Part shown: positions 22,020 to 40,719 of the stretch, one piece after another | How the letters are laid out: each line of letters starts with the position of its first letter | Position numbering within the stretch: the stretch's first letter is position 1 | Assembly: GCF_037201915.1 (NCBI RefSeq) | Contig: NZ_CP147505.1 | Location: forward strand, 248,001-312,000 | Length of the DNA: 64,000 nt | Source: Haloplanus sp. CK5-1 | GTDB taxonomy: Archaea; Halobacteriota; Halobacteria; Halobacteriales; Haloferacaceae | Direction of reading: 5' to 3' | The notes under the pieces: model-generated | Database searches by the model: none | Told to the model about the DNA's origin: nothing | What the model saw: only the letters and a program-made list of their open reading frames with translations | Program-made: the position numbers and the translations under genes

Positions 22020-22047
22020 TTGCGTGGGTCCATCCTGTGTTGGTACA

Positions 22048-25000
22048 ATGTCACGGTATCGGACGCCGGATCATCTGGTCTGTTTGGGGGAGGGAGGAAC
22101 CGAGGTGGGGAAGACGTTCATGCGACAGCGGTGGATCCTGGAGGAGGTCCTCCGGGACGACCCGCGGGACGAGGCACCCGACGAGGACGCCCGTCCGCTC
22201 TACGCGTACTTCATCGACTCCGACAAGTCGACGCTCTCGACCGACATCGAGGACGAAATCGAGGAGACCGTCGACTCCATCGAGGAGGAGTACGGCCTCC
22301 AGAATGCTCCCGACGTCGAGGGGAGCGTCATCAACGTCGTCGAGGGGCCGCACAAAAAACACCTCCAGTCGGAACGGGTGACCGCACGGACGGACATCAG
22401 CGAGCTGGCACTCGACCAGAACATCAAGGCCTGGTGGTTACAACAGGGAGGGGACAGCGACGTGCTCGACCCCCTCTCCGGGCTCGAACGCGGCGGCGTC
22501 GACAGGATGCGGGGACTCACGAAGGCGATCTACCGGATCAGCCAGTGGAAGGGCGACCCGCTCAGTGAGGTCGAACAGAGCGTCAGGAACGACACCCACG
22601 ACGAACCCCACGTCGCCATCGTCGTCGGTCTCGGCGGTGGCACGGGGTCGGGGCTGTTTCTCGACCTCGCACACCGGATCAAGCAGGCCGGGGCGACCGT
22701 CACGCTGTTCGGCGTCCTCCCGAACCCGAGCGGTGGCGACGACAACAGCGTCCGTGCCAACGCCTACGCCGCGCTCTCCGAACTCGAATACCTCGCCCTC
22801 TCGGGGCTCAACCTCTTCGAGGCGCGCGTCCTCCTCCCATACGACCCCGCAATCAGAGACGACACCTTCGACAAGGCCGCCGTCTACACCATCAACGCCT
22901 TCTACAACGTGTCCGGCGACCAGACGAACACGTACAGCCAAGTCGACGAGACGGACGATACCGACGGACCGCCGGATTACGCCCCGTTCACCATCGGCAC
23001 CACCAGATACCTCCACTACCTGAAAGAGGACATCGAGCAGACCAAGGACAACTTCGAGGGCTTCACCGACGACAAGAAGGCCGCCCTCGACGCCGAGGAG
23101 TCGCTCTACGACGAACTGAGGTCGTACCTCGAGGAGAACCACGGCGACGAGGTGGTCAAGCAACTGCGCACGACCGACGATAGCTCGACGATGCGGCTAC
23201 CGAGCGGGGAGGCCCTCGACCTGTGGAACCGGCTGGACGAACTCAAGGACCTCCTCGACGAGTCCCTGATGAAGGAACTCGAGTTCAAGTCGGCGTCGGA
23301 GCTATCGGAGGCGTTCGAGGACATCAAATCGGTCTCGGAGGACGAGGCCGAGTGGGAGGACGACAGCGACAGGGAGGCGGCGGTCGCGCGGGACTTCGTC
23401 GGCCGACTGGCGGACAACATCGGCACCCCCGCCGAGTACCAACAGGACGGGGAGTGGGCGGCCGACGAGCGGGACTTCGTCGAACTGGTCGTCAGGGAGG
23501 TGGAACTGGTGGCCCGCCGGGCGGGCATCATCAAGGCGAGGGAAGCCATCGACGACGAGGACGACATCGACGACGTCAGCGTCGCCGCCACCGACAGCGA
23601 CCCGGTCGACGACGTCACCACCGACATCGACACCGCCATCGCCGAGGATAACCAAGGCTACGCCGTCAACGTCGACGGCTTGATCGACGATCTAGACGAT
23701 GAAAAAAGCGATCTGACGACCGAAATCGACGCCCTCGAAGCCATCACCGAGGCGGGGCGTGACGCGGTCGGCGAACTCGCCGAGGAGTGGGAGACGGAGG
23801 CGGAGGATGCGGTCGAGCAGTACTACTCGCTGTTCAGCACGAAATCCGAGATAGAGGACCTCCTCAGCGAGTTGGAAACCAAAATAGACCGGGAGACCAA
23901 CCTCGAGGACGCAAACAACCCCGAAAACATCATCATCAACGGGACGGGGTTCGACGACTACGGGACGCTCACCAACTTGCTGGACGACGCCGACTGTGAC
24001 GACGTCGACGAGGAGATGATCGAAGGTGCGGTCAAGGACGTCAAGCGGGCGAAGCAGAAACGGCTCAAAGCAGAGGAATACCGCGGTAGCATCAAGGAGG
24101 CGGTGCTGTCGTTCGCGGGATACGGGAGGATCGGTGGCCTACAAAGCGACTACGAGGGGCTGCGCACCACGGAACTCCCGGGCGAACTCATCCGCCTGTC
24201 GAAGTGGAACGAGGAGTTCGAGGCGAGCGTTCAGGGGCAGTACTTCCAGGAGCGGACCAACAGTCTCGACGACCGGGAGGACGACCAGTTCGACGACATC
24301 AAGGACGCAGCCGAGTCGGTACTCGCCGACGCGAAGGCGAAGGGCGCAACCCCCTCGGAGTTCTTGGACGACGACCTGGACGACGACGTCCGTGACCGGG
24401 CGACCTCCATCCTCGACGACTTCGACTTCGACGACGTCGGCGCGGACCCGAGTTCGGTCAGCGGCAATTTGGACTCGGAGGCCGAGAACGCGGACACCGG
24501 CGAGGCGCTGGTCGGTGCGCTACGGGACGGCGCGGTCAGTGACCTCCTGCGGTCCGTTCTGGTGACGACGTTCCAGCGGCGCAAAGAGGAGAGGGAAGGG
24601 GAGCTAGAGACGCTCGAATCGACGATCGACGCCTACGAGACGCTCTCGAATATCGTCTCGGATCTGGGAGGGACGTTCCACTCGAACGCGACCGACGTCG
24701 ACAGCGTCGACTCGATCGTGACCTTCGAGGAGGGCGGCACCGAAGGACCGTTCAAGGTCGATACAGAGCCGTACTCGCGGGGGCAACTCTCGGGGACGGA
24801 CGACCTGAGCGACGCCCCCCTCTGGACGGGCGACGAGCGAGCGGCGATCGTGGAGTCCCTGACCGACATCCTCCCACAGGTCGAGAGCGAGCACCTCCCC
24901 ATCAACAAGGCGGACATCCGCGACGGCGACACCGAACGGGTGGAGTACGAGGGCCACCGCATCGGCTCGGCGTTCATGAGCCCGCTGTTCGACGGGTACG

Positions 25001-25506
25001 TCGACGGTCAGGAAGCCGCGATCCCGGAGGTCAAAGAGGAGATCGTCGACAACCGTCGGTTCACCGAGGAGGGCTACCACAACATCGTGGGTCGGGGCGC
25101 GTTCGCGGATTCGTTCGACTTCGCGATGTCGACGTTCCTGCGTGGCGTGTTCCTCGACAACCTCCGCATCTTCACGACCGAGTGTCGCGACGCGTACACC
25201 TCGACGACGGACGTCGAGGGCGGCGACGACCGCCACAACCCCCAAGACGAGGTGCCGGGCATCGTCAAGCGCCACTCCTACGGGCTGGATGGCCTCACCT
25301 ACCTCGACGACGACTTCCTCCCCGACGAGTCCGACGGCGGGTTCTGTTACCGGCGGGACGTCCTGAACTTCAACCGCAACGGCACGGAGGTCCTACTCAA
25401 CCAGACCCACGAGGAGGTGGTGGCGACGCTCCTCGAGGACTACCACGAGGTCGTCGGCTACCCATCGACCATCGAGTTCCTCGACGAAGAGGACCTGCCA
25501 CGGTAA
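22048..25506 (+). CDS. Large tubulin-superfamily protein TubL1 (Tubulin_2-like)
   Basis: This 1152-aa protein starts MSRYRTPDHLVCLGEGGTE. The tubulin/FtsZ signature GGGTGSG is at residues 196-202, preceded by a strand (HVAIVVGL) and followed by a strand with FGVLPNPSG, as expected for the nucleotide-binding T4/T5 region. The T1-like loop LGEGGTEVGKTF also fits a Walker A pattern. Beyond about 450 residues come long Asp/Glu-rich helical segments with probable coiled coils, then a conserved C-terminal block (about 960-1130). It probably binds GTP and polymerises or scaffolds in the cytoplasm. The stop is immediately followed by the next ATG, so it is coupled to a membrane GTPase-like protein. 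A paralogue is at 45720-49058. Confidence 0.85.
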   Translation: MSRYRTPDHLVCLGEGGTEVGKTFMRQRWILEEVLRDDPRDEAPDEDARPLYAYFIDSDKSTLSTDIEDEIEETVDSIEEEYGLQNAPDVEGSVINVVEGPHKKHLQSERVTARTDISELALDQNIKAWWLQQGGDSDVLDPLSGLERGGVDRMRGLTKAIYRISQWKGDPLSEVEQSVRNDTHDEPHVAIVVGLGGGTGSGLFLDLAHRIKQAGATVTLFGVLPNPSGGDDNSVRANAYAALSELEYLALSGLNLFEARVLLPYDPAIRDDTFDKAAVYTINAFYNVSGDQTNTYSQVDETDDTDGPPDYAPFTIGTTRYLHYLKEDIEQTKDNFEGFTDDKKAALDAEESLYDELRSYLEENHGDEVVKQLRTTDDSSTMRLPSGEALDLWNRLDELKDLLDESLMKELEFKSASELSEAFEDIKSVSEDEAEWEDDSDREAAVARDFVGRLADNIGTPAEYQQDGEWAADERDFVELVVREVELVARRAGIIKAREAIDDEDDIDDVSVAATDSDPVDDVTTDIDTAIAEDNQGYAVNVDGLIDDLDDEKSDLTTEIDALEAITEAGRDAVGELAEEWETEAEDAVEQYYSLFSTKSEIEDLLSELETKIDRETNLEDANNPENIIINGTGFDDYGTLTNLLDDADCDDVDEEMIEGAVKDVKRAKQKRLKAEEYRGSIKEAVLSFAGYGRIGGLQSDYEGLRTTELPGELIRLSKWNEEFEASVQGQYFQERTNSLDDREDDQFDDIKDAAESVLADAKAKGATPSEFLDDDLDDDVRDRATSILDDFDFDDVGADPSSVSGNLDSEAENADTGEALVGALRDGAVSDLLRSVLVTTFQRRKEEREGELETLESTIDAYETLSNIVSDLGGTFHSNATDVDSVDSIVTFEEGGTEGPFKVDTEPYSRGQLSGTDDLSDAPLWTGDERAAIVESLTDILPQVESEHLPINKADIRDGDTERVEYEGHRIGSAFMSPLFDGYVDGQEAAIPEVKEEIVDNRRFTEEGYHNIVGRGAFADSFDFAMSTFLRGVFLDNLRIFTTECRDAYTSTTDVEGGDDRHNPQDEVPGIVKRHSYGLDGLTYLDDDFLPDESDGGFCYRRDVLNFNRNGTEVLLNQTHEEVVATLLEDYHEVVGYPSTIEFLDEEDLPR

Positions 25507-26970
25507 ATGAGCGAGCGCGAACCGGTCCGACCCGACGGCGGTGCCCCCGAACCCGGCGGGCCGCTCACCGACCGACAACGGACGCGTCTGAAACTGTTCG
25601 TGGCGCTGGTCGTCGTCGGTCTCCTCACCGTCCGCGTCGGCGCGCTCCTGGATCGGGCGTGGGACGCCCGCGGCATCGGCCACGCGGTCGCCTTCGCCCT
25701 GACTGCCCCCCGGTTCGACATCGACTTCGCGGTGCTGTTTCCCTTCGGACTCGTCACGGGGTGGCTGGGGCTGTTCGTCGTCGACCGGACGAAGACCCAC
25801 CAGCGGTGGCCCGCGATACTGGCGTACAGCCTCCTGATCGCGTGGCTCGTGTTCGTCGAAAACCGGTGGCGGGAAGAAGTGAAGTGGGTGGCGTTCTGGT
25901 ACGTCGCCGCAGTCGGCGGCGTCGCGGGGCTGACGACCGGCCTCGCTCCGAAACTGTTCGGGAATAGACGGCGCGAGTTTCCCGCCGCGGCGGTCGGGCT
26001 GTTTCTCGCGGCGACGACCCTGTGTACCGTGGCGTTTCTCGACGTCTACCTGGTGGCGGCCGATCGGGTTCCCGCCGTGGGCGGCCCGGTCGGGCCGGCC
26101 ATCGACGCAGTCTCAGTCGCGGGATTCGTGGTGTTGTTCGGCTGGTTCGTCCTCTACAGTGACTACCGCTCCGTCGCGGTGTTGGGCACGTCCCGCCTCC
26201 GCTGCATCGGGGTGATGGCGGGGCTTCTCAACCACGTCCAGGACGACGAGTACGACGGCGAATCGAAGGTAGGCGGGCCGGCGCTCCTCGACATGAAGCA
26301 GTCGCTCCGCGAACACAACAACGTCGACGGCTTCGGAGCCGACCACGGGCCGCAGTACTTCGAGTTCGTCTACCTGCCCTCCACCCACCCGTCCCGTCTG
26401 ACGTACGTGTCGGCGGTCCCCATCGACATCGGCGACGTCGGCGAAGCGACCATCAAACGCATCGTCGGTCGCGCCGCCGACGCGGACGTCAACCGCGCCA
26501 CCGACGCGCTCCGCCGCGGGCTCCGCCGCGGGCTGTCGTTCGTGGCCGACAACGTCCTCCCCGGGAGTCTCAAACGCCGACTCTCGACGGAGACCGGTCT
26601 GCTGGTCGACAACATCGCCGGCGCGGGCACGCTGGTGTTCGTCACGAGCATCGAGGACTTCGAGGGCTACGGGCCCGACGCCACGCTCGCCGACCTCTCC
26701 CCGCCGGCCGAACTGGAGAAGTTCACCAAACTGTGTACCAAGCTCGGCGGGTCACGTGATCGGGTCATCGTCGTGACCGACGCCCACGAGGTGCTCGACC
26801 TCGACGGCAGGAGCGCGGTGACCGACGACGGGTTCGCCGGCTTCGTCCGTGGCCAGTTACTCGACGTCGGCCGCGAGTACACCGTCGTTCCGGTGACCTG
26901 GGACGGGGACCACGCCGGCGACGGACTGGTCGCGGGCGTGTCGGCGCTTCGGCGCGCGCTCGACGCCTGA
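25507..26970 (+). CDS. Six-TM protein with degenerate P-loop GTPase-like C-terminus
   Basis: This 487-aa protein starts directly after the TubL1 stop. About six helices occupy residues 27-215. A charged link (YSDYRSVAVLGTSRLR) then aligns with the start of the GTPase domain in the gene at 27150 (MDKDVLLLGPDRAGKT), but the GKT of the P-loop is missing. Later strands include VIVVTDAHEV, in the place where GTPases have NKxD. It is probably an inactive GTPase-fold partner anchored in the membrane. I know no named family for it. The fold claim is from motif alignment by eye. Confidence 0.65.
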   Translation: MSEREPVRPDGGAPEPGGPLTDRQRTRLKLFVALVVVGLLTVRVGALLDRAWDARGIGHAVAFALTAPRFDIDFAVLFPFGLVTGWLGLFVVDRTKTHQRWPAILAYSLLIAWLVFVENRWREEVKWVAFWYVAAVGGVAGLTTGLAPKLFGNRRREFPAAAVGLFLAATTLCTVAFLDVYLVAADRVPAVGGPVGPAIDAVSVAGFVVLFGWFVLYSDYRSVAVLGTSRLRCIGVMAGLLNHVQDDEYDGESKVGGPALLDMKQSLREHNNVDGFGADHGPQYFEFVYLPSTHPSRLTYVSAVPIDIGDVGEATIKRIVGRAADADVNRATDALRRGLRRGLSFVADNVLPGSLKRRLSTETGLLVDNIAGAGTLVFVTSIEDFEGYGPDATLADLSPPAELEKFTKLCTKLGGSRDRVIVVTDAHEVLDLDGRSAVTDDGFAGFVRGQLLDVGREYTVVPVTWDGDHAGDGLVAGVSALRRALDA

Positions 26971-27149
26971 GCACCGACGCCGCCGGATCCGCGTACGAGT
27001 CGGCCCCACACCCGACGCCCGTCGAGGCCCCGAAGCCAGCCATCCTGACACGTCAATGAAATTTTATCACGTCGGTAACACGTGTCCTACTCGCCGGACC
27101 AAACAGTGTAAGGTTTTATTACGTCATCGCAGGGACACAGTACTGTCAG

Positions 27150-28937
27150 ATGTCTGCGAACGAACCGGAGTTCTGGAAATTAATCAGACAGCGGCTGCGA
27201 CAGTTCGTCTTCTACAATCAGGACGACCTCTCCACACTGTTGGTGAGGCTGTTCGCCGTCGTGACGACGACGGTCATCCTGACGTACGCGTGGTCGCTCG
27301 GCTGGCCGAGGGGGTTGACCTGGCACGTGATGTACGGAATCGAGGCGGCGATTCCCGGTCCGCCGGGCCCAGTGTTCGTGGCACCGCTCGGGTTCCTGGT
27401 CGGTCTCGCCTCGCTCTTCGGGCTCGACGCCTACAAGCGCATCCAGGGACTCCTGTTGCTCCCTCCCGCGCTGATCGCGATGTTCGTCGTCATCCGCGGA
27501 CTCGACCGCCTCGATATCGTCTGGAGTCCTACGACCATCGGCGTCGGCTTCCTCTTTTTCCTCGTGGGACTCGGGTTCGGCAGTTTCGACATCCTCCGCT
27601 CGGGCGAACGCGAGTTGAAGCGGGGCTTTCACCGACTCATCGCCGTGGTCGGTCTCGTCTCGTTTTGGGGTATCATCGAGGCGACGGTCGACTACCCGCC
27701 GCCGATCGTCCGCCCGACCAACCCGGGGGGCGAAGGGGCACCGCCGCTCATCGTCGCCGAGAACCCGATCGTCAGCCTCGTCACCGAGACCAGTTTCGGA
27801 AGCACACTCCCCACGTCGGCGCCAGCGGGGGTGTTCTACCTGATCATGCTGGGGGGCCTCGTCTGGGCGCTCTGGGACTTCACCGAGTACGAGATGGACA
27901 AGGACGTCCTCCTCCTCGGCCCCGACCGCGCCGGCAAGACGTGGTTCATGGGCGGTGCGGGACACTGCCTCGTGGAGCAGGCACGGATGGACAGCACCTT
28001 CCAAGACCCGGACTGCAACGGCCCACTGCACACCTACAGGAGGCCGTTCGCCCGTGACGAGTTCGACGACCCGCTGCTGGAGGCAAACAACCACGGGGAG
28101 TTCAACTTCTTCAGTTTCAAGTACGAACACGGCGTGCTCCCGAAGCGACGCCTCCGCGTCCAGACCGTCGACTACGCGGGGGAGTTCATCTCCGAGGTCA
28201 ACCTGAACAACCCGTGGGTGGCGTTCGACCAGTCCTGGGCGAACAAGGACGACATCGAACCCGGCGAATTCCCCGACTTCGGGACGCTCACCCAACTTAA
28301 AAAGTCGACACAATTGAATATCTCGCCAGACGACAAGGACGCCGACACCATCTATCCCGAGGACATCCCGCCGCTCCTCTCGGCGATGATCGCCGAGTAC
28401 GACGCCATCGCGTTCATCGTCCCGGCAGACGAACTCGTGGGCGACCTGGACGACGACGACCTCCCGGACCATCTGGAGAAGAGTGCGTTGGAAAGCAGAC
28501 TAAGCAGTCGTGAAACCTACGCGAATCCGGAGGACGTCCCATTCAACGAGAACACGTACGCGTTCTTCGAGGTGTACAAGGAAGTGATCCAGCAGTACGG
28601 GGACGAGAAGGATCTGTTTTTCACCGTGACGATGGCGGACGCCTTCCTCAAGACGTTCCGCGACGAAACCACCCACCAGGATCCGAAGGGCAACCCGAAC
28701 TGGGACCAGTTCCGTCGGCACGTCTACGACAAAATCGAGGACCAGCGGTCGGACATCGACTTTATGTCCGAACCCATGGCCGAGAACTACGAGAACTACT
28801 ATCCGGTGTACTTCGAGCCCAAGGACCCGCCGGGCTATACGACCCCCGGGGGAGAGTTCAGGCCCTACATGGACTGGGACGACGACTACCTGTCGCTTCG
28901 GGGACTGCAGTTCCTGTTCAAGCGGATGGGGAGGTAA
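27150..28937 (+). CDS. Membrane-anchored P-loop GTPase-like protein
   Basis: This 595-aa protein has about five or six hydrophobic helices within residues 30-250. The cytoplasmic domain begins VLLLGPDRAGKTWFMGG, a complete Walker A (about 257-264). A second motif, TVDYAGEF (about 340), fits the DxxG switch II of GTPases. IAFIVPADEL and FFTVTMADAF lie where guanine-specificity strands are expected. The arrangement resembles transmembrane or double-GTPase-type proteins of bacterial and archaeal signalling systems. It has its own promoter (TTTTATTA about 30 bp upstream) and ends 3 bp before the next gene. Confidence 0.75.
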   Translation: MSANEPEFWKLIRQRLRQFVFYNQDDLSTLLVRLFAVVTTTVILTYAWSLGWPRGLTWHVMYGIEAAIPGPPGPVFVAPLGFLVGLASLFGLDAYKRIQGLLLLPPALIAMFVVIRGLDRLDIVWSPTTIGVGFLFFLVGLGFGSFDILRSGERELKRGFHRLIAVVGLVSFWGIIEATVDYPPPIVRPTNPGGEGAPPLIVAENPIVSLVTETSFGSTLPTSAPAGVFYLIMLGGLVWALWDFTEYEMDKDVLLLGPDRAGKTWFMGGAGHCLVEQARMDSTFQDPDCNGPLHTYRRPFARDEFDDPLLEANNHGEFNFFSFKYEHGVLPKRRLRVQTVDYAGEFISEVNLNNPWVAFDQSWANKDDIEPGEFPDFGTLTQLKKSTQLNISPDDKDADTIYPEDIPPLLSAMIAEYDAIAFIVPADELVGDLDDDDLPDHLEKSALESRLSSRETYANPEDVPFNENTYAFFEVYKEVIQQYGDEKDLFFTVTMADAFLKTFRDETTHQDPKGNPNWDQFRRHVYDKIEDQRSDIDFMSEPMAENYENYYPVYFEPKDPPGYTTPGGEFRPYMDWDDDYLSLRGLQFLFKRMGR

Positions 28938-28940
28938 CAG

Positions 28941-31847
28941 ATGTTCTACGTGTTCGACAACGGCGGCGAGATGCGGTACCCCCCGGGTGGGTTGCGGGAG
29001 GCAGAACCCGACGGGTACAGCCAGCGCAGTCGGGAACTGTGGGACGCCGGCTTCTACTTCCACTACGACGGGGGCCGAAACCACGTCGCCTGCTACTTCA
29101 AGGGCGCGATCGGTTCCGGTCAGCAGTTGGTGAACAACCAGTTCTACGGCGTCTACTACGGCGACGGGACGGACCACGACCTGCTGGCAGCCTTCGAGGA
29201 CGAACTCGAATCGGCGTTCGACAGCCAGGGGTGGCGGACGTCGGACTCGGACATGGGGACCGCCGCCATCTACGCGAATCTCACGAGCGTCCAACCCGTC
29301 GATCTGGCCGTCGACCAGGAGTTGCTGCGGGCCGCCACGTCCGACGAGTCGGAGACTGCGGACGGGCCGATCCAACTCGGCGCCCCCGACTTCACGAGTT
29401 CGCTCCGGGTCTGTAAGCGACTGATCGCCGACCTCGAAGACGCCCGGGTGACGATCTGCTCGGCCGGCGCGAGCGAGACGCTCCCCGACACGGACGTCGT
29501 GGTCATCCCCGAGGCCACGGACGAGCCGGGGGCGCCGGCCCGCGGAACGAAAGTGGAGATGCAAAAAAAGGAGTTGAGACGGCGTATCACGGAGACGAAG
29601 GCGGATCTCGAAGACTTCGTCGAGGGGGAGCAGGCCCGAGCGCGGGCGCTCGTCGAGTCGATCGAATCGGGGTTCCTCGATCCGACCGTCCCGGACGTCG
29701 AGAGCCTCGGATACCGGCTCGACACCCCGGCCCGAAAGGCCGAGAAGGAGTCGAGGGACACGACCTTCTACACGGGCCTCGGCGGGATCCTCGGCACCGT
29801 CCTCACGGTCGTCGCCCTCTGGTACGTCGGCGTCGTGGGGAGGCTCGTCGAGTCCCTGAGTTCGGAGGTCACCTTCCAGTTGGGCCTCGTCCCGGGAGTC
29901 GAACCGCCGGCGTTTGCCACCACCCCTATCGGGAGCTGGCAGATCGTCGGCGTGTGTCTGGTCGTCATCGGCCTGATGGCCGGCTGGGGACACACCGACA
30001 GGATCGTCGCCGAACTCCGGACGTGGATCTCGGGCGGAGACGGGACCGACGCGGGGTCGGTCGACGGCGCGAACGAAGCCGCGAAGTCGCTGGTGGCTGA
30101 CTTGGAGGAGATACTGAACCACCCGGCTACCGAGCGAAGCGAGTTCTCCGACGTCCCCGACGGGATATTCGAAGGGGAGGTACACCTGAACGTGTACGAC
30201 GACGCCGACTACCGCTCGAGTACCCGGAATACCCTCGTACTCTCGATGCTCAAAGGCATCGGCGCCGTCGGCGTTGTCGGCGTCCTGTTCGCCGGCGTAG
30301 CGTGGGTCGCGAGCCAGTACTGGCAGCCCTCCCTCAGCGTCCTCGTCGGGCTCGCTATCGGGTCCGTCCTCCTCCGCCTGCCGCGCGCCGCCACGACGGT
30401 GGCCCCGCTGCTGTTCAAGGCCGCCCGGTCGGGCTCGCTCCCCGACCGGCGCGCGAGTGCGGTCGGTGGAGCGCTACTGCTCGGTGGGTGGTCCGTCAGC
30501 CAGGCCGGCGCGGTGGCGTGGCAGCGAGGATCCGGCCTCCCGTATCACCTCGTCAGCGGCATCGGCGGAGAGCTCCCGGGCCGGGTCGTGGGGCCGGCAG
30601 CCGGCGTCGAAGTGCTCTTTTTCGGCGTCGTCGGGGGCGCCCTCGCCGCGCTCGGCGTCGCGGCGTGGCGGTCGCCGGAACCGCTGGTCCAGCGCGCGCT
30701 CCTCGCGGCGACGGTCGTCGGACTCGTCAACCTCTGGTTGAGCGTCGACTTCGTCTCGGCGTGGGGCTGGTTGGCCGGGGTCGCGAGTGGTATCGGCGTC
30801 GCGGCCGCGGCCACGTGGCGAGGGGTGTCCCCCGACCGACTGACGCGCGGCGTCGGAGGGTTGTACGGCGTGGTCGTCGTGGTCGTCGGCCTCGAAAGCC
30901 AGCTGCAATACCAGTCGCCGCTGGTGTACGACGCGTCGGCCGGCGGCTTCGTAGGCGGGACCCCGTCTTTTGCGGGGTACGCGTACTCGCTGAGCGCCTC
31001 CCGGGTCGCCCTGACGCTCGTCCACATCGCCATCGCCGCCGCCGTCCTGTACGTGCTCTGGACGGAAGTCTTCGGCAGCGACCGCACCGAGGTCATGGTG
31101 GTCGGTCCCGATGGAGACGCCCAGATTCGCCACATGTCGCTGCTGTTCGGGCACTTCCTCACCGACGTAGACGGCGACGAGCCGGAACCGAACGACGCGA
31201 TGAAACGGATTCGGAAGCGGGACGACGGCGGCGGGACGACGCCCATGGAGGAAATCCTCGATACTGACGGCGTACTGCCGGCGTCGTTCACCGTCGACTC
31301 GTCCAACCTGCTCGTGTGGACGCCGCTGACCTCGGGGACGGTCCTCAGCGACGAGGTGTTCACGCGGCTCGACCGGAAGCTCAACAGCCGGACCAACCTC
31401 ACCGAGGATACAGTCAGGGGTGCGCCACAGTACGTCGAACTGGCGATTTCGTTACAGGAGACGGACGTACTCGTCTTGCTGTTCCCGGCCGACGACGACG
31501 ACGACGAGCGACGGCAGAAGTACCTGAACGACTGCTATAAGTTGCTGGAGCAGTTCCGCGACGAAGAACTGACGACCATCGGCGTCATCACGGGAGCCGA
31601 CCACCTGATCGATGGCGTCGCAACCGAGCAGTGGGAGAATTTCCGCGAGGTGGCGACCGAGGAGGCATTCGAAGGCTACTCCCAAGAACGGCGGGAGATA
31701 CTGCTCTCGTACCTGGACAACGCGGACCGCGGCGTCCTGCTTCCGGTGGTCGAGACGATGGACGGGGAGATCGAGGGTCTGGACCGGGCGGTCGGATACT
31801 TCGACGGTTCGGGCGGAGGATCGACCGACGTGATGGATCGGCTGTGA
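28941..31847 (+). CDS. Large multi-TM protein with degenerate GTPase-like C-terminus
   Basis: This 968-aa protein begins with a soluble domain of about 150 residues (FYVFDNGGEMRYPPGG..., aromatic and Gly-rich), then an acidic helical linker (about 200-260). Two helices follow near 275-360 and a cluster of about nine helices covers 430-710. The C-terminal domain starts RTEVMVVGPDGDAQI, aligned with the P-loop start of the preceding gene but without GK[ST]. It ends with TIGVITGADHLIDG, like a G4 strand. It is probably the third, catalytically inactive partner of the membrane trio. It converges on the CAP gene with 16 bp between stops. Confidence 0.65.
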   Translation: MFYVFDNGGEMRYPPGGLREAEPDGYSQRSRELWDAGFYFHYDGGRNHVACYFKGAIGSGQQLVNNQFYGVYYGDGTDHDLLAAFEDELESAFDSQGWRTSDSDMGTAAIYANLTSVQPVDLAVDQELLRAATSDESETADGPIQLGAPDFTSSLRVCKRLIADLEDARVTICSAGASETLPDTDVVVIPEATDEPGAPARGTKVEMQKKELRRRITETKADLEDFVEGEQARARALVESIESGFLDPTVPDVESLGYRLDTPARKAEKESRDTTFYTGLGGILGTVLTVVALWYVGVVGRLVESLSSEVTFQLGLVPGVEPPAFATTPIGSWQIVGVCLVVIGLMAGWGHTDRIVAELRTWISGGDGTDAGSVDGANEAAKSLVADLEEILNHPATERSEFSDVPDGIFEGEVHLNVYDDADYRSSTRNTLVLSMLKGIGAVGVVGVLFAGVAWVASQYWQPSLSVLVGLAIGSVLLRLPRAATTVAPLLFKAARSGSLPDRRASAVGGALLLGGWSVSQAGAVAWQRGSGLPYHLVSGIGGELPGRVVGPAAGVEVLFFGVVGGALAALGVAAWRSPEPLVQRALLAATVVGLVNLWLSVDFVSAWGWLAGVASGIGVAAAATWRGVSPDRLTRGVGGLYGVVVVVVGLESQLQYQSPLVYDASAGGFVGGTPSFAGYAYSLSASRVALTLVHIAIAAAVLYVLWTEVFGSDRTEVMVVGPDGDAQIRHMSLLFGHFLTDVDGDEPEPNDAMKRIRKRDDGGGTTPMEEILDTDGVLPASFTVDSSNLLVWTPLTSGTVLSDEVFTRLDRKLNSRTNLTEDTVRGAPQYVELAISLQETDVLVLLFPADDDDDERRQKYLNDCYKLLEQFRDEELTTIGVITGADHLIDGVATEQWENFREVATEEAFEGYSQERREILLSYLDNADRGVLLPVVETMDGEIEGLDRAVGYFDGSGGGSTDVMDRL

Positions 31848-31863: not shown

Positions 31864-32736
31864 TCAGTAGAAGTTCTGTGTCGTGTACATCGCTCCTTCG
31901 GGCGTGATGTAGACGCCGATGCCCTCCTTCGCGAATCGGTCCCGGAGGATGTTCTCCCGGTGGCCCTTCGAGTTCATCCACCCCTCGACCACCGACCGGG
32001 CGGCCTCACGAACCGATGCGCCGTGGTCGGGGTGTGTGAGGGCGATGTTCTCGCCGCTGCTCCGGTCGTCGTGCTCGAACCTACGGTATCGGTCGCCGGC
32101 GTCGTCGCCGTCGGGGGAGGTGTGGGAGAAGAAGTCACGCTCGGCCATGTCCCGGCTGTGCTGGAGGGCGATGGCGCTCAGGTGGTGACTGTATTCGAGC
32201 GTCCCGAGGCCGTGATCGGTCCGTCGTCGGTTCGTCGCCTCGTGGACCGTGCGCTCGACGGCCGTCCGGTCCGCCGAGAGGCTCAGGTCTACCGGGATGT
32301 CGACCCGATCGCGGTCGACCGCTGCTCCGCAGTCGAGACAGGAATCCGGTGGGGCGACGCGACTGCCACACTCGCCACACGTCCACTGCCCGCCGAGGTG
32401 GATGATGGGTGCCTCACAGCCCGGGTGGTGGCCGCGAACCGTCGATGTCCCGCAGTTCTTGCACTCGGTCCGACCGACGGTGACCGTCAATCCAGCCCGC
32501 TGGCCGCTCGTCGACTCGCCGGGGTCGTGACCCGGGTCGTCGGTCCGCTCCTCCTGTCCGGTCAGGTCGTCGACCCAGTCGGAGCCGCCGCCGCCCGAGC
32601 CACCCGAGCCACCCGAACCGCCCGAGCCGTCGTCCCCCTGGTCGTCCTCCGCCTCCTCGGCCCAGTCCGGCAGGTCGTCGCTCAACACCCGACGGAACAG
32701 CGCCGTTCGCTCGACGTCGTCGCCACGTTCTGCCAT
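31864..32736 (-). CDS. CAP (SCP/PR-1) domain protein with zinc ribbons, no signal peptide
   Basis: This 290-aa protein has an acidic N-terminus, a Gly/Ser linker (about 38-51) and two zinc-ribbon-like modules (CKNCG...HHPGC and CGECG...CLDCG, about 92-137). A CAP domain follows with HSRDMAERDFFSHTSPDG, GENIA and GWMNSKGHRENIL. CAP proteins are normally secreted. This one has no Sec or Tat signal and cytoplasmic-type zinc ribbons. It is the distal gene of the kinase/phosphatase/vWA operon, so an intracellular role in that system is likely. Confidence 0.85.
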   Translation of the reverse strand: MAERGDDVERTALFRRVLSDDLPDWAEEAEDDQGDDGSGGSGGSGGSGGGGSDWVDDLTGQEERTDDPGHDPGESTSGQRAGLTVTVGRTECKNCGTSTVRGHHPGCEAPIIHLGGQWTCGECGSRVAPPDSCLDCGAAVDRDRVDIPVDLSLSADRTAVERTVHEATNRRRTDHGLGTLEYSHHLSAIALQHSRDMAERDFFSHTSPDGDDAGDRYRRFEHDDRSSGENIALTHPDHGASVREAARSVVEGWMNSKGHRENILRDRFAKEGIGVYITPEGAMYTTQNFY

Positions 32737-32866
32737 CGTCCGTGTCCCTGTCCCGCCGGCCCCTTACGCTTGTCCCCCTCGGCCCGAGCCGCCACGCCGT
32801 CAGCGAAGTGTGTCGGCGACGGCCGAACCGACGTCGCCGGTCCACCTCGTCGGGTAACTGGTGGCG

Positions 32867-33814
32867 TCAGTACGGCGGCAAATCGTCAGACCCATCGTCC
32901 GGTTCCAGGAGGCCGGCCGCCCGACGGAGAGCCACGATCCAGTCGTCCGGCGACGGTCGTATCCACCCGCACGCCTTTCCGTCGAAGCAGTCGGCGAACA
33001 GGTCTCGGACGTTCTCCGGGAGTCGGTCGTAGTCGGGTGCGTCGTCGTGTGGTTCCACCTCGTCCGGTTCGGGGTCCTCGTAGGGGAACGGGTTGTTCTC
33101 TATCATGTCGGCGAAGCCGCCACTTTGGGCCCATCTACCCTGCGCCTGAAACGGGTGAAAGCCCTCCATCAGCAACTGGAAGATGTGGACGCCGAGGCCG
33201 AATCGGTCAGCCTCGCGGGCCGCGTCGAGCGAGTCACCGCGCCCCTCCAGGGGCGCGTACCGCGGGAGGTAGGTGTCGCCGCCGTACGCGCCGTCCTCAC
33301 CGCTGATGTGGAAGGCGTCGCAGTCGATGAGCGTGACGTAGCGGTCGTCGACGAGGATGTCACCGTGGTTCAGGTCGCCGATCGCGTGGTCTTGCTCGTG
33401 GATAGCGTCGACCACGATAGCCAAGTTGTGCGCCGTCGCGTATCGTCTCTCGGGGTCGCTGTCCGCCCATCTCAGATCTTCGCGAGCGTACCGATGGGCG
33501 TCCTTGTATTGGTCGAGGTCCACGCGGGGCATGGTGTAGCCCAGGAACGACCCGGACCGATCCTCGACGACTCCGGTCGGCCAGACGATCGACCGGACAT
33601 CGCTCTGGAGGTGGGTCGTATCGGTCGGCGGGTTCGCGATCATCGCCCGCACTTTGTCGGCCTTCTCGGACCGCCGCTCTTCCTCGAACACCTTCACGAC
33701 CTCGTCCGAACCGGGGAGCGCGTAGACCGATCCCTCCACCCCAATCCCCAGCCGTTCACCCAGTGTCGCCTCCTCGGAGCCGACGACGACGTGGTCCCCC
33801 TCGAAGTCAGTCAT
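32867..33814 (-). CDS. TerY-P-type Ser/Thr kinase paralogue A (short, N-to-D in catalytic loop)
   Basis: This 315-aa protein is a kinase domain only. It begins DFEGDHVV, like its paralogues, with a Gly-rich loop GIGVEGSVY and Lys41 (VVKVF) as the VAIK lysine. The catalytic loop reads GDLNHGDIL: Asp147 is kept but the Mg-binding Asn is Asp152. The DFG position is Asp164 in LIDCDAF. The C-terminus stops soon after the kinase lobe, with no tail or TM helix. It is a member of the family of kinases linked to TerY-like vWA proteins and PP2C phosphatases. Activity is uncertain. Confidence 0.8.
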   Translation of the reverse strand: MTDFEGDHVVVGSEEATLGERLGIGVEGSVYALPGSDEVVKVFEEERRSEKADKVRAMIANPPTDTTHLQSDVRSIVWPTGVVEDRSGSFLGYTMPRVDLDQYKDAHRYAREDLRWADSDPERRYATAHNLAIVVDAIHEQDHAIGDLNHGDILVDDRYVTLIDCDAFHISGEDGAYGGDTYLPRYAPLEGRGDSLDAAREADRFGLGVHIFQLLMEGFHPFQAQGRWAQSGGFADMIENNPFPYEDPEPDEVEPHDDAPDYDRLPENVRDLFADCFDGKACGWIRPSPDDWIVALRRAAGLLEPDDGSDDLPPY

Positions 33815-33869
33815 CGCGGTCCGATTCGTCGGCGTCCGACATATATCCCTCGCCCGCAGCGGGGCGACG

Positions 33870-35162
33870 TCACACCGCTGCGAAGAGCACGTACCCCGCT
33901 AGCAACGCGACGAGTAGGCCGCCGAAGTAGAGCAGCGTTCGTTTCAGTTCCGAGACGACGGTTCCCGCAACCTCGGACCGTCGGCTCCGTCGTGACGTCG
34001 TCACCGGTGGATCGCTCGTCTTCGATCCACCGCCGCCACCGCCACCACCGCCGGCAGGGGGTCGGGGACGCGTGTCTCGGCCCGACCCGCTGCCACCGCC
34101 ACCACCGCCGGCACTGCCACCGCCACCACCGCCGGCACTGCCACCGCCGCCACCGCCGGCTGGGGGTCGGGGTCGCGTGTCTCGGTCCGATCCGCCGGAC
34201 TGCGTCTCGGTTTCCGCCGTCGTGGTCGAGTCGTCGTCGGTGAGCCCGGTCACCGTTTTGAGCGTGCGGGTCCACTCGCTGGCCTTGGGGCGGGCTATCG
34301 GATGCTCCTTTCCGGCGTGGAAGCACTTGTCGAACAGTTCCCGGATGTCCGCCGGGAGTTCGTCGTAGTCGGGTGAGTGGTCGTGTGGCTCCAACCCCTC
34401 GGGCCGAGGATCCGTGTACAGGAACCGGTTCCCCTCTATCATGTCGCCGAAGTCACCGGTCGTTGCTGCGGGACCCTGTGCCTGAAACGGATGGAATCCC
34501 TCCATCAACAGCTGGAAAATGTGGATACCGAGGCCGAACCGGTCACCCTCGCGGACCGCACTCAGCGTCCTCGCCCGTCCCTCGGGGGGCGCGTACCGCG
34601 GGAAGTAGGTGTCGTCGCCGTACGTGTCGTTCGCGCCGCTGATGTGGAAGGCGTCGCAGTCGATGAGCGCGACGTAGCCGCCGTCGACGAGGATGTTCTG
34701 GTGGTTCAGGTCACCGATGGCGTGACCCTGCTTGTGGATGGCCTCGAAGACGAGCGCCACGTTGAGCGCTGTCTTGTACCGCGTTTCCGGTTCGCTGTCC
34801 GACCACTGCATGTCCTCGCGGGCGTACCGCTGGACGTTCTTGTATGCGTCGAGGTCCACGCGGGGCATGGTGTAGCCCAGAAACGCGTCGGTTGAGGGAT
34901 CCTCGACGACCGCCGTCGGCCAGACGATCGACCGAACGTCGCGCTCCCGGTGGGTCGGATCTGTCGGCGGGTTCGCCACCATCGCCTGCACCTTGTCGGC
35001 CTTCTCGACCCGCTTCGTCTCCTCGAATATCTTCACGACCTCGGACTCGATTCCCTGCACTCGGTACACGGCGCCCTCCGCGCCCGTACCGAGTTGTGCG
35101 CCGAGCTGGAGCGTCCCGGCGGGGCCGCGTACCGTCTCCCCCTCGAAGTCATCGGCATTCAT
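33870..35162 (-). CDS. TerY-P-type Ser/Thr kinase paralogue B with Gly-rich stalk and TM anchor
   Basis: This 430-aa protein has a kinase domain (about 1-320) with all key residues: Lys44, catalytic Asp151 and Asn156 in GDLNHQNIL, and Asp168 in LIDCDAF. It is followed by low-complexity stalks of Gly runs punctuated by SAG and RDTRPRPP (about 345-390), then a basic patch and a C-terminal helix (LLYFGGLLVALLAGYVLF). It is therefore a tail-anchored kinase facing the cytoplasm and the most likely fully active member. The Gly stalk is encoded by GCC/ACC-rich repeats in the DNA at about 34030-34165. Confidence 0.85.
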   Translation of the reverse strand: MNADDFEGETVRGPAGTLQLGAQLGTGAEGAVYRVQGIESEVVKIFEETKRVEKADKVQAMVANPPTDPTHRERDVRSIVWPTAVVEDPSTDAFLGYTMPRVDLDAYKNVQRYAREDMQWSDSEPETRYKTALNVALVFEAIHKQGHAIGDLNHQNILVDGGYVALIDCDAFHISGANDTYGDDTYFPRYAPPEGRARTLSAVREGDRFGLGIHIFQLLMEGFHPFQAQGPAATTGDFGDMIEGNRFLYTDPRPEGLEPHDHSPDYDELPADIRELFDKCFHAGKEHPIARPKASEWTRTLKTVTGLTDDDSTTTAETETQSGGSDRDTRPRPPAGGGGGGSAGGGGGGSAGGGGGGSGSGRDTRPRPPAGGGGGGGGGSKTSDPPVTTSRRSRRSEVAGTVVSELKRTLLYFGGLLVALLAGYVLFAAV

Positions 35163-35313
35163 CGGCGAGTACCCCTGCTTCGTCGGTCTCGGACGCCAGA
35201 CGGTCGCCGGAGGTTGGAGACCGGACGACTGGAGGCGTCTCGGCGGACGTGTGGTGTCGCTCCGAACCCACGCGGTCGGGGGCTACACATCACGGCGGCC
35301 ATCGCTCCGGCAT

Positions 35314-37119
35314 CTACGTCTCCGAGGTCGCGTCCGGTAGCGCCTCCACCCACGCGCTCGCGGACGGTCGCAGCCGTGGATGCGTCTTTCCCTCGACGAA
35401 ACACCGCTCGAACCGCCGTCGCAAGTCGGTAGGGAGCGCCGAGTACGGGGCCGCATCACTCGGTGGCTCGAGCAGTTCCGGCTGGGGGTCGCGGTACGGA
35501 AAGGGGTTCTTCCGAATCAACTCCCCGAATCCTCCGTCGGCCGCCTCGGACCCGCGGGCCTCGAACGGGTGGTGACCACCGGTAAGGAGTTGAAACACGT
35601 GAACGCCGAGACCGAATCGATCCGCACGCTGGACCGCCTCCAGTCCCTCGCATCCCTCCGGTTGCGCGTATCGTGACAGGGCGTCGTCGCCATCGTACGT
35701 GCCGTCGGACCCCTCGATGTGAAACTCGTCACACCCGGTCAGAAACAGGTCGCCGTCGTCGACGAGTATCCGATCGTGAGTCAGGTTTCCGACTGCGTGA
35801 CCCTGCTGGTGGAGGCTGTCGACGGCGGTGACCAGTTCGGCCGCCGGGCCGCCTCGGACGGCCCCGTCGCGGTCGTCGAGGAGGCCGACGGCGTCAAGTA
35901 GCCGCCCGACGACGGTCGACGGGCGGGCCGCCCGCCGGATCCCGCCCCTCGACGCCGCCCACTCCAGGACGTTCGATGGATCGTCGACATCCGGATACGA
36001 CAGACGGTAACCCAGAAACTCCCCTCCATCGGGGGTCGTGACCACCGCCGTCGGCCACGCGAACGACTGCCGCTCGGTCGGGGGTCGTTCGATCATCGCC
36101 CGGATCTTCGCCTCCGCCTGTCCCCCCGACCGCCGCTCCGGCGGGAGGATCTTCACCGCGTCGGTCTCGGCTTCGACGACGCGGTAGACGTGGCCACCCG
36201 GCCCCGTAGCCAGCGTCGCGTCGAGCGGCAGGTGCTCTCCGTCGTCCGATTCGACCGTCTCGCCCTCGAAGTCGTCGGCGGACCGCTCGCCGGACCCCAT
36301 GACGTCCCGTACCGTCTCCGTCCCCGTTCCATCCTCGGTCACATCCGAGGACAGCGCACCGATGGCCAGCGTCTTGTCGTCGCCCGAGTAGGTCCGGTGG
36401 TGCTCGTTGTCCAGATACTCGCACAGTTCCTGCTGTACGTCGGTCATGTCGTCCGTCGACCGAACGAGGTCGAAGATCTGGTCGAAGAAGGCGTCTTTGA
36501 CGTCGTCCCGTCCGTCCCAGACGAACTCGTCGATACCGTCGGAGAACACGGCGACGGCGTCGAACTCGTCTTGGTAGCCAAACCGGTACGACTCCTCCCA
36601 CGAGTCGTGCATGAGCGGAACTGTCACGTTCGCGAACTCGGTGTCCACGACGGTCATCTCCCTGGGGATCGGGAGGTCGTTCGTGCCCTGGTGGTGGCTG
36701 ACGATGCCGCCGTCACCGACCACCGCCGCGCCCATCCCCGAGGGACCCGCCGCGACGGTCAACAGCGTGGTGTTCAGTTCCGACGCCGACTGGTCGAGTT
36801 TCACCGCCTCCTCCTCGACGGCGGCTCTCGCCTCCGCCATCGCGTTTTTCATCGCCTCGCCGCACGCCTCGCGCTCGATGGTCTCGGCGTCCGACAGGTA
36901 GCGACGGAGCGCGTCGGCGGCCTCGCGCGTGGCCAGTTCGGACCCCTCGTGGGAGTGGCTCGCGCTTCCGAGTCCGTCGCCCACGGCAATGACGAATCGG
37001 CCACCGGAGAGCCGGTAGCCACACCAGGCGTCCTGACACGGCTCGTCGGTCTCCTCGTGTTTGGGCCCCCTGACCGAGCATCCGACGACCTTCGATCTTC
37101 GGGGAGCGTCGTCGCTCAT
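35314..37119 (-). CDS. PP2C phosphatase fused to a pseudokinase
   Basis: Residues 1-265 of this 601-aa protein form a PP2C domain with metal-binding motifs VGDGLGS (Asp48), FSDGIDEF (Asp194) and SGDDKTLAIG. A second module starts at about 282 with DFEGETV, the same opening as the separate kinases, and spans 285-595. It keeps Lys323 (AVKIL), but the catalytic Asp is Asn445, the catalytic-loop Asn is Arg450 and the DFG Asp is Gly462, so it is a pseudokinase. PP2C removes Ser/Thr phosphates, and the pseudokinase could target it to kinase substrates. The stop lies 150 bp from kinase B, and the start abuts the vWA stop. Confidence 0.88.
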   Translation of the reverse strand: MSDDAPRRSKVVGCSVRGPKHEETDEPCQDAWCGYRLSGGRFVIAVGDGLGSASHSHEGSELATREAADALRRYLSDAETIEREACGEAMKNAMAEARAAVEEEAVKLDQSASELNTTLLTVAAGPSGMGAAVVGDGGIVSHHQGTNDLPIPREMTVVDTEFANVTVPLMHDSWEESYRFGYQDEFDAVAVFSDGIDEFVWDGRDDVKDAFFDQIFDLVRSTDDMTDVQQELCEYLDNEHHRTYSGDDKTLAIGALSSDVTEDGTGTETVRDVMGSGERSADDFEGETVESDDGEHLPLDATLATGPGGHVYRVVEAETDAVKILPPERRSGGQAEAKIRAMIERPPTERQSFAWPTAVVTTPDGGEFLGYRLSYPDVDDPSNVLEWAASRGGIRRAARPSTVVGRLLDAVGLLDDRDGAVRGGPAAELVTAVDSLHQQGHAVGNLTHDRILVDDGDLFLTGCDEFHIEGSDGTYDGDDALSRYAQPEGCEGLEAVQRADRFGLGVHVFQLLTGGHHPFEARGSEAADGGFGELIRKNPFPYRDPQPELLEPPSDAAPYSALPTDLRRRFERCFVEGKTHPRLRPSASAWVEALPDATSET

Positions 37120-37851
37120 CTACTGGTCGTCGCTGTCCGTATCGACCTGTGCTCCGGGATCGACGTCGCCACCGTCGCCCGGCTGTGACTCCTTTTCGAG
37201 GCTGTTCGAGACGATTTCGAACAGTTCCTGGAACATCCCCTCGTCGAGCGCGACGGGATCCTTGTCGGTCACCGAAACCAGCTCGTCGAGCGTGTCCATA
37301 TCCGCTTCCTCCCCGATTCCGAACGCGAAAAACAGGAAGTGGTCCTCGTCGGTCCCACGCTCGAGCAGGTTCTGTGCCGTCTGCCACTGCTGGTCCCCGG
37401 GATTCATGTCCGTCGGTTGGCCGTCCGTGAGGAGCCAGATGATCGGTCGGTTGTACGCGTACCCGTTGTCCCTGTACTGCTGTTTTCGGTCCTCGTCGAG
37501 GTTCACCGCCTTCTCGATCGCCTCCCCCATCGGGGTGTTGCCACTGGGGCTCAGCGTCGGCGGGTCCCAGTTCTGAATCGGGGAGAAGTCCTGCTCCACC
37601 GTAACCTCCCCGCCGAACGAGACGACGGCGACGTCGACGCGTGTCTCGGCGTGCTCCTCCTCCTCGATTTCACTCTTGAAGTACTGTAACCCCTCGTTCA
37701 ACTGGTCGATCCGCGACTCCGTCCCACCCTGACCGTCCGGCGTCTCCGTGGTCATCGAGTACGACGTGTCCAGAATCAGCACCGTCGGCGTCCGCTCAAC
37801 CGTCGGTGGTACGTCCTCGAGTCCGCCGTCGGAACCCTCTTCCTGACTCAT
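37120..37851 (-). CDS. vWA domain protein, TerY-like
   Basis: This 243-aa protein is a single vWA domain with an intact MIDAS: DTSYSM (Asp28, Ser30, Ser32), the Thr in SGNTPMGEA and the Asp in LLTDGQPTD. The tail is acidic. TerY-like vWA proteins bind divalent metal and partner with a PP2C phosphatase and a kinase in the TerY-P triad described for tellurium-resistance-associated systems. That exact set is present here. GGAG 7 bp before the ATG may be a ribosome binding site, and an ATTAAAGT TATA-like element lies about 40 bp upstream. It is coupled to the PP2C gene. Confidence 0.88.
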   Translation of the reverse strand: MSQEEGSDGGLEDVPPTVERTPTVLILDTSYSMTTETPDGQGGTESRIDQLNEGLQYFKSEIEEEEHAETRVDVAVVSFGGEVTVEQDFSPIQNWDPPTLSPSGNTPMGEAIEKAVNLDEDRKQQYRDNGYAYNRPIIWLLTDGQPTDMNPGDQQWQTAQNLLERGTDEDHFLFFAFGIGEEADMDTLDELVSVTDKDPVALDEGMFQELFEIVSNSLEKESQPGDGGDVDPGAQVDTDSDDQ

Positions 37852-38075
37852 CGTTTTGCTCCATTGGTATCAATGTGTGATATGTAACTTTAATCCTCTG
37901 GTACTATTACTGACACGATCTGGTCGAAACAGGGAGGGGGTCGCCCAAGGGTTCGGGTCGTTCCCCGCCGTGACCGGTCCCGTCGTCGGATGCGCCGGAA
38001 TTATATCGCGTCTTATATGACTGTATGCCGACAGTTCTCGGCGAGCGACGGTCGGCCACGGCCGTTCCCGGGGAG

Positions 38076-39537: not shown

Positions 39538-40719
39538 ATGAAACTCGCAACAATCGGTGTCGGTAACGCCGGAAGTAAGGTTGTAGACCGGATGGTCGAG
39601 TTCGAATCCGAAACCAACCGGAACCTGTGCCGACACGTCCACGCGATCAACACCGCCCGAACGGACCTCGCCAAGCCCGAGTACATCCCCGAAGAACAGC
39701 GCGTCCTCGTCGGCGACACGAACCAGAAGTCGAAGGGTCACGGCGTCGGTGGTGACGTCGAGATCGGCGCGGAGGTCATGTCCGCGGACATCGACGAGAT
39801 CCGCCGCGCGTTCGACGACATCGAGATCCACAACGTCGACGCCATCCTCGTCGCCGCCGGTCTGGGCGGCGGCACCGGGAGCGGTGGCGGCCCCGTCGTC
39901 ATCGACGCCCTCCAAGACATGTACGACGAACCGGTGTACGCGCTCGGTGTCCTCCCCGGCGAGTACGAAGGCGGACGCCCCGCACTGAACGCCGCCCGCT
40001 CCCTCCAGTCGTTCGTCAACAAGGTCGACAACTTCATCGGCTTCGACAACGACGCCTGGCGCGCCCGCGACCAGACGATCGAAGAGGGGTACGAGGAGAT
40101 GAACCGCGAACTGGCGGCCCGTATCGTGACGTTGCTGGCGGCCGGTGAAACCGACGACTCGGACGTCGCGGAGAACGCGATGGACTCCAGCGACATCATC
40201 CGGACGCTCGCCACCGACGGGGTGTCCTCCATCGGCTACGCCGCCACGGCGGTCGACGCCCAGCCCGAAGGCCTGCTGGACCGGTGGGGTGGCGGCGGAG
40301 CCGAGGAGGATCCCCTGGACGACGCCAGTCAGGCGACGAAGATCAAGTCCCTCGTCCGCCGGGCGACCAACTCGCGCCTGACGCTGCCGTGCGAGGTGTC
40401 GAGCGCCGAACGGGTGCTCGTCGTGCTGTCCGGGCCGCCGAGCGAGTTCTCCCGAAAGGGGATCGAGAGCGCCCGCCAGTGGCTCGAACAGGAGGCCGGA
40501 ACGGTCGAAGTTCTCGTCGGCGACGACCCGCGAGAGAACTCCTCTCGGCTCGCGGCGGCCGTCCTTCTGTCGAACGTCTCGGGAGCCACGCGGATCGAGA
40601 CGCTCCAGAACCAGGCCGTCGACGCACAGGAACAGATCGCCGAGCAGCAAGCCGCTCGGGAGGAGAAGATCAACGACCTGATCACCGACGAAAACGACGA
40701 CCTCGACCCCGTCGTCTGA
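39538..40719 (+). CDS. cetZ: CetZ tubulin-like protein 1
   Basis: This 393-aa protein starts MKLATIGVGNAGSKVVDRM. It has the GGGTGSG nucleotide-binding signature at 110-116, the FDNDAWR segment and a T7-loop-like MDSSDIIRTL with the acidic residues needed for GTP hydrolysis between subunits. RLTLPCEVSSAERVLVVLSGP is typical of CetZ C-terminal domains. CetZ proteins form cytoskeletal polymers that control cell shape and motility in haloarchaea. A TATA-like TTAACTATA lies about 35 bp upstream. The C-terminus is acidic. It is followed 47 bp later by a second cetZ. Confidence 0.94.
   Translation: MKLATIGVGNAGSKVVDRMVEFESETNRNLCRHVHAINTARTDLAKPEYIPEEQRVLVGDTNQKSKGHGVGGDVEIGAEVMSADIDEIRRAFDDIEIHNVDAILVAAGLGGGTGSGGGPVVIDALQDMYDEPVYALGVLPGEYEGGRPALNAARSLQSFVNKVDNFIGFDNDAWRARDQTIEEGYEEMNRELAARIVTLLAAGETDDSDVAENAMDSSDIIRTLATDGVSSIGYAATAVDAQPEGLLDRWGGGGAEEDPLDDASQATKIKSLVRRATNSRLTLPCEVSSAERVLVVLSGPPSEFSRKGIESARQWLEQEAGTVEVLVGDDPRENSSRLAAAVLLSNVSGATRIETLQNQAVDAQEQIAEQQAAREEKINDLITDENDDLDPVV

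Follow-up and report, generated by a model that had tools for sequence, protein, structure and literature searches.

Active and apparently dead membrane GTPase paralogs beside a tubulin-like gene of the FtsZl1 family in haloarchaea

The FtsZl1 family of tubulin-like proteins, together with its kinase, vWA and GTPase neighbours, was described by Makarova and Koonin (2010; PMC2875224; Pfam PF13809), and in the part of that account drawn on here the GTPases of the archaeal systems are membrane-associated, and a locus of this kind, with kinases present, is given for Halorhabdus utahensis. For these systems, known from sequence since 2010, we found no published mechanism, and none of the literature found shows filament formation by FtsZl1. 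A second precedent is provided by the DO-GTPases (Kaur et al. 2020; PMC7159879; PF19975/PF19993), TRAFAC proteins that are paired in 38% of their systems, some of them with N-terminal TM segments, and that have a conserved Glu in Walker B; a partner gene lies downstream of them and is sometimes fused, and tubulin-family genes occur in the GAP1-N2 systems. Dead copies within an assembly are familiar from the septins, whose pseudo-GTPase subunits occur in hetero-oligomers (PMC10731463). In haloarchaea themselves, the small vesicle GTPase ArvA, with its DUF2073/DUF2072 partners, is reported in the part of its description used here (PMC10927574).

The locus of interest lies in the 3.24 Mb single-contig genome of a haloarchaeon, within a stretch of 64,000 nucleotides that was analysed as a whole and is called the window below (G000:C1:248001-312000). 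On its plus strand, four genes follow one another, encoding a tubulin-like protein (TUB) and the proteins A, B and C (Table 1). The TAA stop codon of TUB abuts the ATG of A, and B and C are separated by 3 bp. The start of TUB was taken at MSRYRTPDHLV, a GTG at 22024 being likewise open. The open reading frames were where an earlier reading of the sequence, made from the letters alone (the sequence-only reading), had placed them, and the motifs that it quoted were present. Converging on this operon from the minus strand (window 31864-39335) are genes for a CAP-domain/zinc-ribbon protein, a kinase, a PP2C-kinase, a vWA protein and a further kinase. Profiles derived from the window found no kinase, PP2C-kinase, vWA or CAP genes next to the other loci, and the association therefore looks specific to this lineage.

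The window is also rich in other tubulin relatives. A second FtsZl1-family gene (45720-49058, plus strand), 59% identical to TUB over its whole length, stands alone, with no A, B or C beside it, and between the two FtsZl1 genes lies a tandem CetZ pair (39592-40719 and 40767-41930, plus strand), i.e., 27 kb of the window holds four genes of the tubulin superfamily (two FtsZl1 and two CetZ). A scan for sigma-70 promoters and terminators was set aside as uninformative, since its model is bacterial and the organism an archaeon.

Table 1. Positions within the window of the genes, domains and motifs discussed in the text.
Feature	Position	Strand	Basis or remark
TUB, FtsZl1-family tubulin-like protein	22048..25506	+	Pfam Tubulin_2, E 3e-14, 53.5 bits against a cut-off of 27
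Protein A, predicted pseudo-GTPase, 487 aa, ~6 membrane helices and a degenerate G domain	25507..26970	+	fold model, fold neighbours, paralogy to B, motif census
A, D93xxK96xxQ99 motif between membrane helices 2 and 3	25783..25803	+	18/18 A homologs; common with B
A, degenerate G1, VAVLGTSRLR, aa 223-232	26173..26202	+	alignment
A, degenerate G4 strand RVIVVTDAHEV, specificity Asp lost	26761..26793	+	alignment
Protein B, membrane GTPase, 595 aa, G1 and G3 intact	27150..28937	+	ORF, motif census
B, D93xxK96xxQ99 motif DAYKRIQ, position as in A	27426..27446	+	alignment
B, Walker A GPDRAGKT, aa 257-264	27918..27941	+	alignment
B, Walker B/switch II DYAGE, aa 341-345; Glu after DxxG as in DO-GTPases	28170..28184	+	alignment
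B, G4 TMAD, Met for Lys of TKxD	28629..28640	+	alignment
Protein C, 968 aa	28941-31847	+	ORF
C, N-terminal domain, aa ~4-234, ~230 aa	28941..29640	+	found in proteins downstream of B in the loci examined
C, aa 481-968, third membrane and G-domain module, degenerate, 488 residues	30381..31844	+	hhalign probability 99.1 against A+B; AF2 model; mostly TRAFAC folds
C, degenerate G1 VMVVGPDGDAQI, aa 718-729	31092..31127	+	alignment
C, G4-like strand TIGVITGADHL	31575..31607	+	alignment
VWA gene	37120-37851	-	domain scan of the window

The sequence-only reading, that the three membrane proteins are homologous and have domains of P-loop GTPase type, was borne out by profile-profile homology and by the predicted folds of A and C. 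Its notion that the likeness resides in the tails proved real but too narrow, as what A, B and C (aa 481-968) have in common is a whole module with about six membrane helices. A and B are full-length paralogs: profiles of the A-only and B-only families align end to end (probability 100%, E 1.5e-43), and an A profile run against 392 genomes recovered B proteins at E 1e-20 to 1e-40. The module of C aligns with the A+B profile over its full length, including the membrane helices (hhalign probability 99.1%), with a score of 140 against control maxima of 27 in 30 shuffles and 26 for reversed sequence, and its G-like part by itself scores 62.7 against a control maximum of 20.2. Forty-one other proteins that have the N-terminal domain of C but different tails scored no more than 27.6 (probability at most 5.7%) against the same profile, the sole exception among proteins with this N-terminus being a relative of C in another genome (L034, G054), whose tail scores 80, chiefly through its membrane part. 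Judged by these comparisons, fusion of a third module to a C-type N-terminus appears confined to this genome and, weakly, that one relative.

These values were obtained with a single C sequence, since a profile built by aligning the C-terminal part of C with the L034 relative in MAFFT proved to be misaligned and performed poorly. Likewise, an iterated profile of the B C-terminus drifted via the P-loop into the ABC ATPases, and for that reason the two families were profiled separately, as A-only and B-only, with explicit controls. Neither B nor the B-family profile found a significant match in a sequence search of the PDB, and nothing was found by a plasmid tblastn search with C or by a scan of the genome contigs with B.

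Folds were predicted for A and for the C module. The AF2 model of full-length A, built with 17 family members in the alignment (pLDDT 80.5, pTM 0.76), has helices at residues 22-53, 72-92, 94-117, 131-150, 159-183 and 193-216, followed by the strand and helix order of a G domain, beta1-alpha1-beta2-beta3-...-beta6-alpha5. Among its best 50 PDB matches, TRAFAC GTPases dominate (EF-Tu, YcjX, MglA with a TM of 0.58 on target, YsxC, Rho and septin), the best Foldseek E being 2.3e-3; for neither model did a Foldseek E fall below 0.001. The order of elements in the C module (pLDDT 72.5, pTM 0.65) is that of A, and its matches are almost all G-alpha, Obg/Nog1, EF-Tu, Rap2A and Gtr1-Gtr2, joined by two GPCRs that enter via the membrane helices. 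As its alignment contained rows of A and B, the fold of the C module counts as support and is no independent test. On these models, both A and the C module are predicted to have the Ras-like alpha/beta topology of a TRAFAC-type G domain, C at lower confidence. Structure prediction of these two tails had been set beforehand as the test able to refute the sequence-only reading, and it returned P-loop NTPase-like folds with mostly TRAFAC neighbours.

The question of which copies are dead was approached through a motif census of aligned modules (18 from A, 41 from B and 2 from C). The Walker A motif GK[S/T] is found in none of the 18 A proteins versus 40 of the 41 B homologs, and DxxG in 0/18 and 41/41, respectively; both G1 (GxxxxGK[S/T]) and G3 (DxxG) are absent from A and from the C module. 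The claim that only the second protein keeps GKT and DYAG is thereby confirmed, A and the C module being degenerate. The G1 region of B (aa 253-264) reads VLLLGPDRAGKT, and D-x-x-G-E is present in the window's B and in most of its homologs. The 18 aligned A sequences show no conserved replacement for Walker A at its position.

The late strands that had been likened to the strand conferring guanine specificity (VVTDAHEV in A, TVTMADAF in B and VITGADHL in C) were found, although the likeness itself is weaker than proposed: A has no Asp (TDAH), and B and C keep the Asp (TMAD, TGAD) without the Lys. Across the homologs, the Asp of this strand is kept in B, as TKxD or TMxD, and mostly lost in A, in which the Thr is kept (T424). 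Since the window's B does not have the Lys of T/NKxD, even B is not a textbook GTPase, and its guanine specificity is uncertain owing to TMAD. The replacement of this Lys by Met or Phe is seen in 11/14 B proteins where the locus has A and in 0/26 where it does not, a link that is a lead only, and not claimed to be significant, as it comes down to two independent contrasts on the tree. A further motif, DxxKxxQ, is present without exception in A (18/18), is almost as constant in B (D in 40/40, K in 39/40), and is absent from the C module. Given six helices and a cytoplasmic G domain, the loop that carries it would lie on the cytoplasmic face, and its retention in A, despite the loss of the catalytic motifs there, speaks for selection that acts on A in the role of a structural partner.

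Two atypical relatives of B were met along the way. The only B homolog of the census without GK[S/T] is a soluble copy in the same genome, the fourth (G000:C1:403440-404459; L031 8510-9469, plus strand), which has AGLT for AGKT, is the nearest relative of B, does not have the membrane bundle, and has neighbours that resemble ordinary metabolic and repair genes. In genome G022, a B ortholog outside the census alignment (L128 3019-4842, minus strand) reads GPHSSGRRS, i.e., it has lost the Lys of the P-loop, and adjoins an A gene. Going by its sequence, this locus is apparently a GTPase-free version, and hence the use of GTP by B would not be universal.

A forms one clade (SH-aLRT 100), and in the window's family a full A is present in 15 of 171 genomes, with B in 15/15 of these; A without B was never found. 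More than half of the loci examined have no A. Where it occurs in these loci, A always lies directly behind TUB and co-oriented with it, and B always directly before a gene of C type, and the pairs TUB-A and B-Cnt (Cnt for the C-type N-terminal domain) are kept even where they are on opposite strands (L035, L042, L050, L052, L122 and L125). Where A is missing, the genes stand in a compact TUB-B-Cnt order, and A thus occupies the slot that B holds in these simpler genomes. The distance matrices of A and B are correlated (Mantel r 0.69, p 1e-4; with near copies removed, r 0.56, p 4e-4), although inheritance together in one locus also gives a high value in proteins that make no contact. Co-inheritance of A and B is supported by these patterns. 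On the tree, a very long branch connects the C module to the side of B, so that the origin of the module is unsure. The series therefore runs from one GTPase, to a GTPase with one dead copy, to, in this genome, a GTPase with two dead ones; the first copy, A, is conserved and the third rare.

The N-terminal domain of C has no Pfam match, is unrelated to the GTPase module, and constitutes a widespread family of its own. Its tails vary by genome (L035, L043, L037, L048, L049 and the window), and consist of beta-propeller-like repeats, of carboxypeptidase-regulatory/prealbumin-like domains or, in the window, of the third GTPase-like module, and in L035 and L043 the tail is a second copy of the N-terminal domain itself. 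Two loci (L052 in G014 and L123 in G387) have two B-Cnt pairs each, the second Cnt having a very long tail, in an open frame of at least 969 aa that reaches the end of the stretch.

Our preferred interpretation, to which we give a probability of roughly 45%, is that the locus represents a variant FtsZl1 (Tubulin_2) membrane system, its single membrane GTPase having been duplicated into an active and dead set that operates as follows. A would be the membrane anchor or adaptor of the tubulin-like protein, and its dead G domain would pair with that of B as a fixed half-site. Binding and hydrolysis of GTP by B alone would make and break the A-B pair, and the pairing would thereby switch whether the tubulin-like protein is recruited to, or assembles at, the membrane. 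The N-terminal domain of C may be the dedicated partner or regulator of B, and in this genome the third dead module would weld that regulator into the membrane assembly, with A, B and C, we infer, making up one complex.

Several other explanations of the same observations were weighed. It is hardly credible that the likeness of the three tails is coincidental patterning of hydrophobic strands, for although no family in Pfam, NCBIfam or PADLOC scans gave a significant match to A, B or the C module, coincidence is rejected by profile scores far above those of shuffles, reversed sequences and the 41 unrelated tails, and by the predicted folds. A more serious contender, which we nevertheless rate as somewhat unlikely, is that the locus encodes a DO-GTPase-like pair, i.e., a GTPase dimer of a conflict or defence system. 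On this view the dead copies have no particular function and reflect decay in individual lineages, and the system serves defence, not membrane remodelling. The features listed by Kaur et al. (pairing, TM segments, Walker B Glu, downstream partner gene and tubulin genes) do parallel the locus, and the DYAGE of B matches the Walker B Glu. In addition, one B homolog reaches 24.2 bits against DO-GTPase2 (cut-off 27), over the G4 region, a three-sequence DO-GTPase2 profile aligns with the B family at a probability of 93.3 and E 2.7e-7 (the controls EngB, Obg and ABC giving 42-79%), and the B profile retrieves a member of PF19993 at E 2e-7. However, no family member passes the PF19993 cut-off and the window's B is unmatched; single DO-GTPase sequences have a probability of at most 23% against B; no GAP1 model is among the 25 Pfam families listed for 18 members of the C N-terminal family; and no HSP70 or effectors of DO-GTPase systems were recognised. 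A search of the genome contigs for DO-GTPases found only one Rhodococcus locus. The loss of motifs in A, moreover, is conserved (18/18, one clade) and is not sporadic decay.

The separate gene pairs, TUB-A and B with its C-type gene, mean that A and B need not share a complex, and A and the C module could be membrane scaffolds only, with G domains that no longer meet that of B and with clients of their own, in keeping with which the C module is without DxxKxxQ as well. This we consider unlikely, as A never occurs without B, the distances of the two agree, and A is predicted to have retained the G-domain fold. The same retention of the fold, the kept Thr of G4 (T424) and the precedent of septin pseudo-GTPases that bind nucleotide without hydrolysis (PMC10731463) could be read to mean that A, and C, still bind nucleotide at an unusual site, but the Walker A Lys and Ser/Thr and DxxG are missing from 18/18 A proteins, with no conserved replacement, and the chance of this seems very small.

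The resemblance to the FtsZl1 system lies in an FtsZl1-family gene with an adjoining, diverged membrane P-loop GTPase, and in vWA and kinase genes nearby, as in this window (VWA, kinases and one PP2C-kinase). Of the features by which the GTPases of that system are recognised, Walker A/B and TxKD, B has GPDRAGKT and DYAG, along with TM helices, and TxKD is only partly kept (TMAD). The main text of the FtsZl1 paper, as far as it is drawn on here, describes GTPases with intact motifs and makes no mention of a second or third degenerate copy (PMC2875224), and A or C may belong to the families A1-A2 that the paper associates with the system. With the DO-GTPase systems the locus shares DxxGE, frequent pairs of paralogs, a downstream or fused partner, and tubulins in one subtype; it differs in that B is below the family cut-off, there is no recognisable GAP1 and no HSP70, and one paralog is consistently dead. 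By its sequence, the locus may work like a DO-GTPase pair, and a distant kinship is possible, but it is not filed as a DO-GTPase. ArvA is likewise an archaeal GTPase at the membrane with operon partners, but the part of its description used here mentions neither a tubulin-like gene nor a dead paralog (PMC10927574).

The sequence-only reading had compared its complex to septins and to the signal recognition particle receptor. The septin comparison is good as logic, since active and dead G domains occur in one assembly, the fold is of TRAFAC type, and a septin is among the fold matches of A, but it does not extend to membership, which was rejected as A, B and C have no septin match in Pfam, and the modules here, unlike septins, are embedded in the membrane by a helical bundle. 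With the signal recognition particle receptor (SR), the likeness is heteromeric GTPase pairing at the membrane. SR and SRP54 are SIMIBI GTPases, whereas the fold matches here are TRAFAC, which makes that comparison the weaker one. Membership was rejected here too, there being no SRP profile match above the cut-off and the fold matches of A being TRAFAC; one homolog touches SRP54 in the P-loop only (E 0.24, below the cut-off). By analogy, the closest logic among known systems would be that of the septin pseudo-GTPases (PMC10731463).

The FtsZl1 setting and membrane-bound archaeal GTPases were known already, a context that had escaped the sequence-only reading; the conserved dead partner and the triple version are new. 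A conserved dead GTPase beside a tubulin-like gene and an active partner turns a vague prediction of 'membrane remodelling' into a concrete and testable architecture, in which it can be asked which G domains face each other and whether a single GTP site controls the tubulin-like protein at the membrane. As a general proposal for haloarchaea, offered tentatively and with the odds against it, a tubulin-like protein at the membrane would be run by an obligate hetero-oligomer in which one membrane GTPase is active and one (in this genome two) dead, the dead subunits setting order and stoichiometry and the single active site being the switch, a counterpart in logic to septins or to Rag/Gtr pairs. 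If true, archaeal pseudo-GTPases would be added as structural partners to a theme that has so far been mainly eukaryotic.
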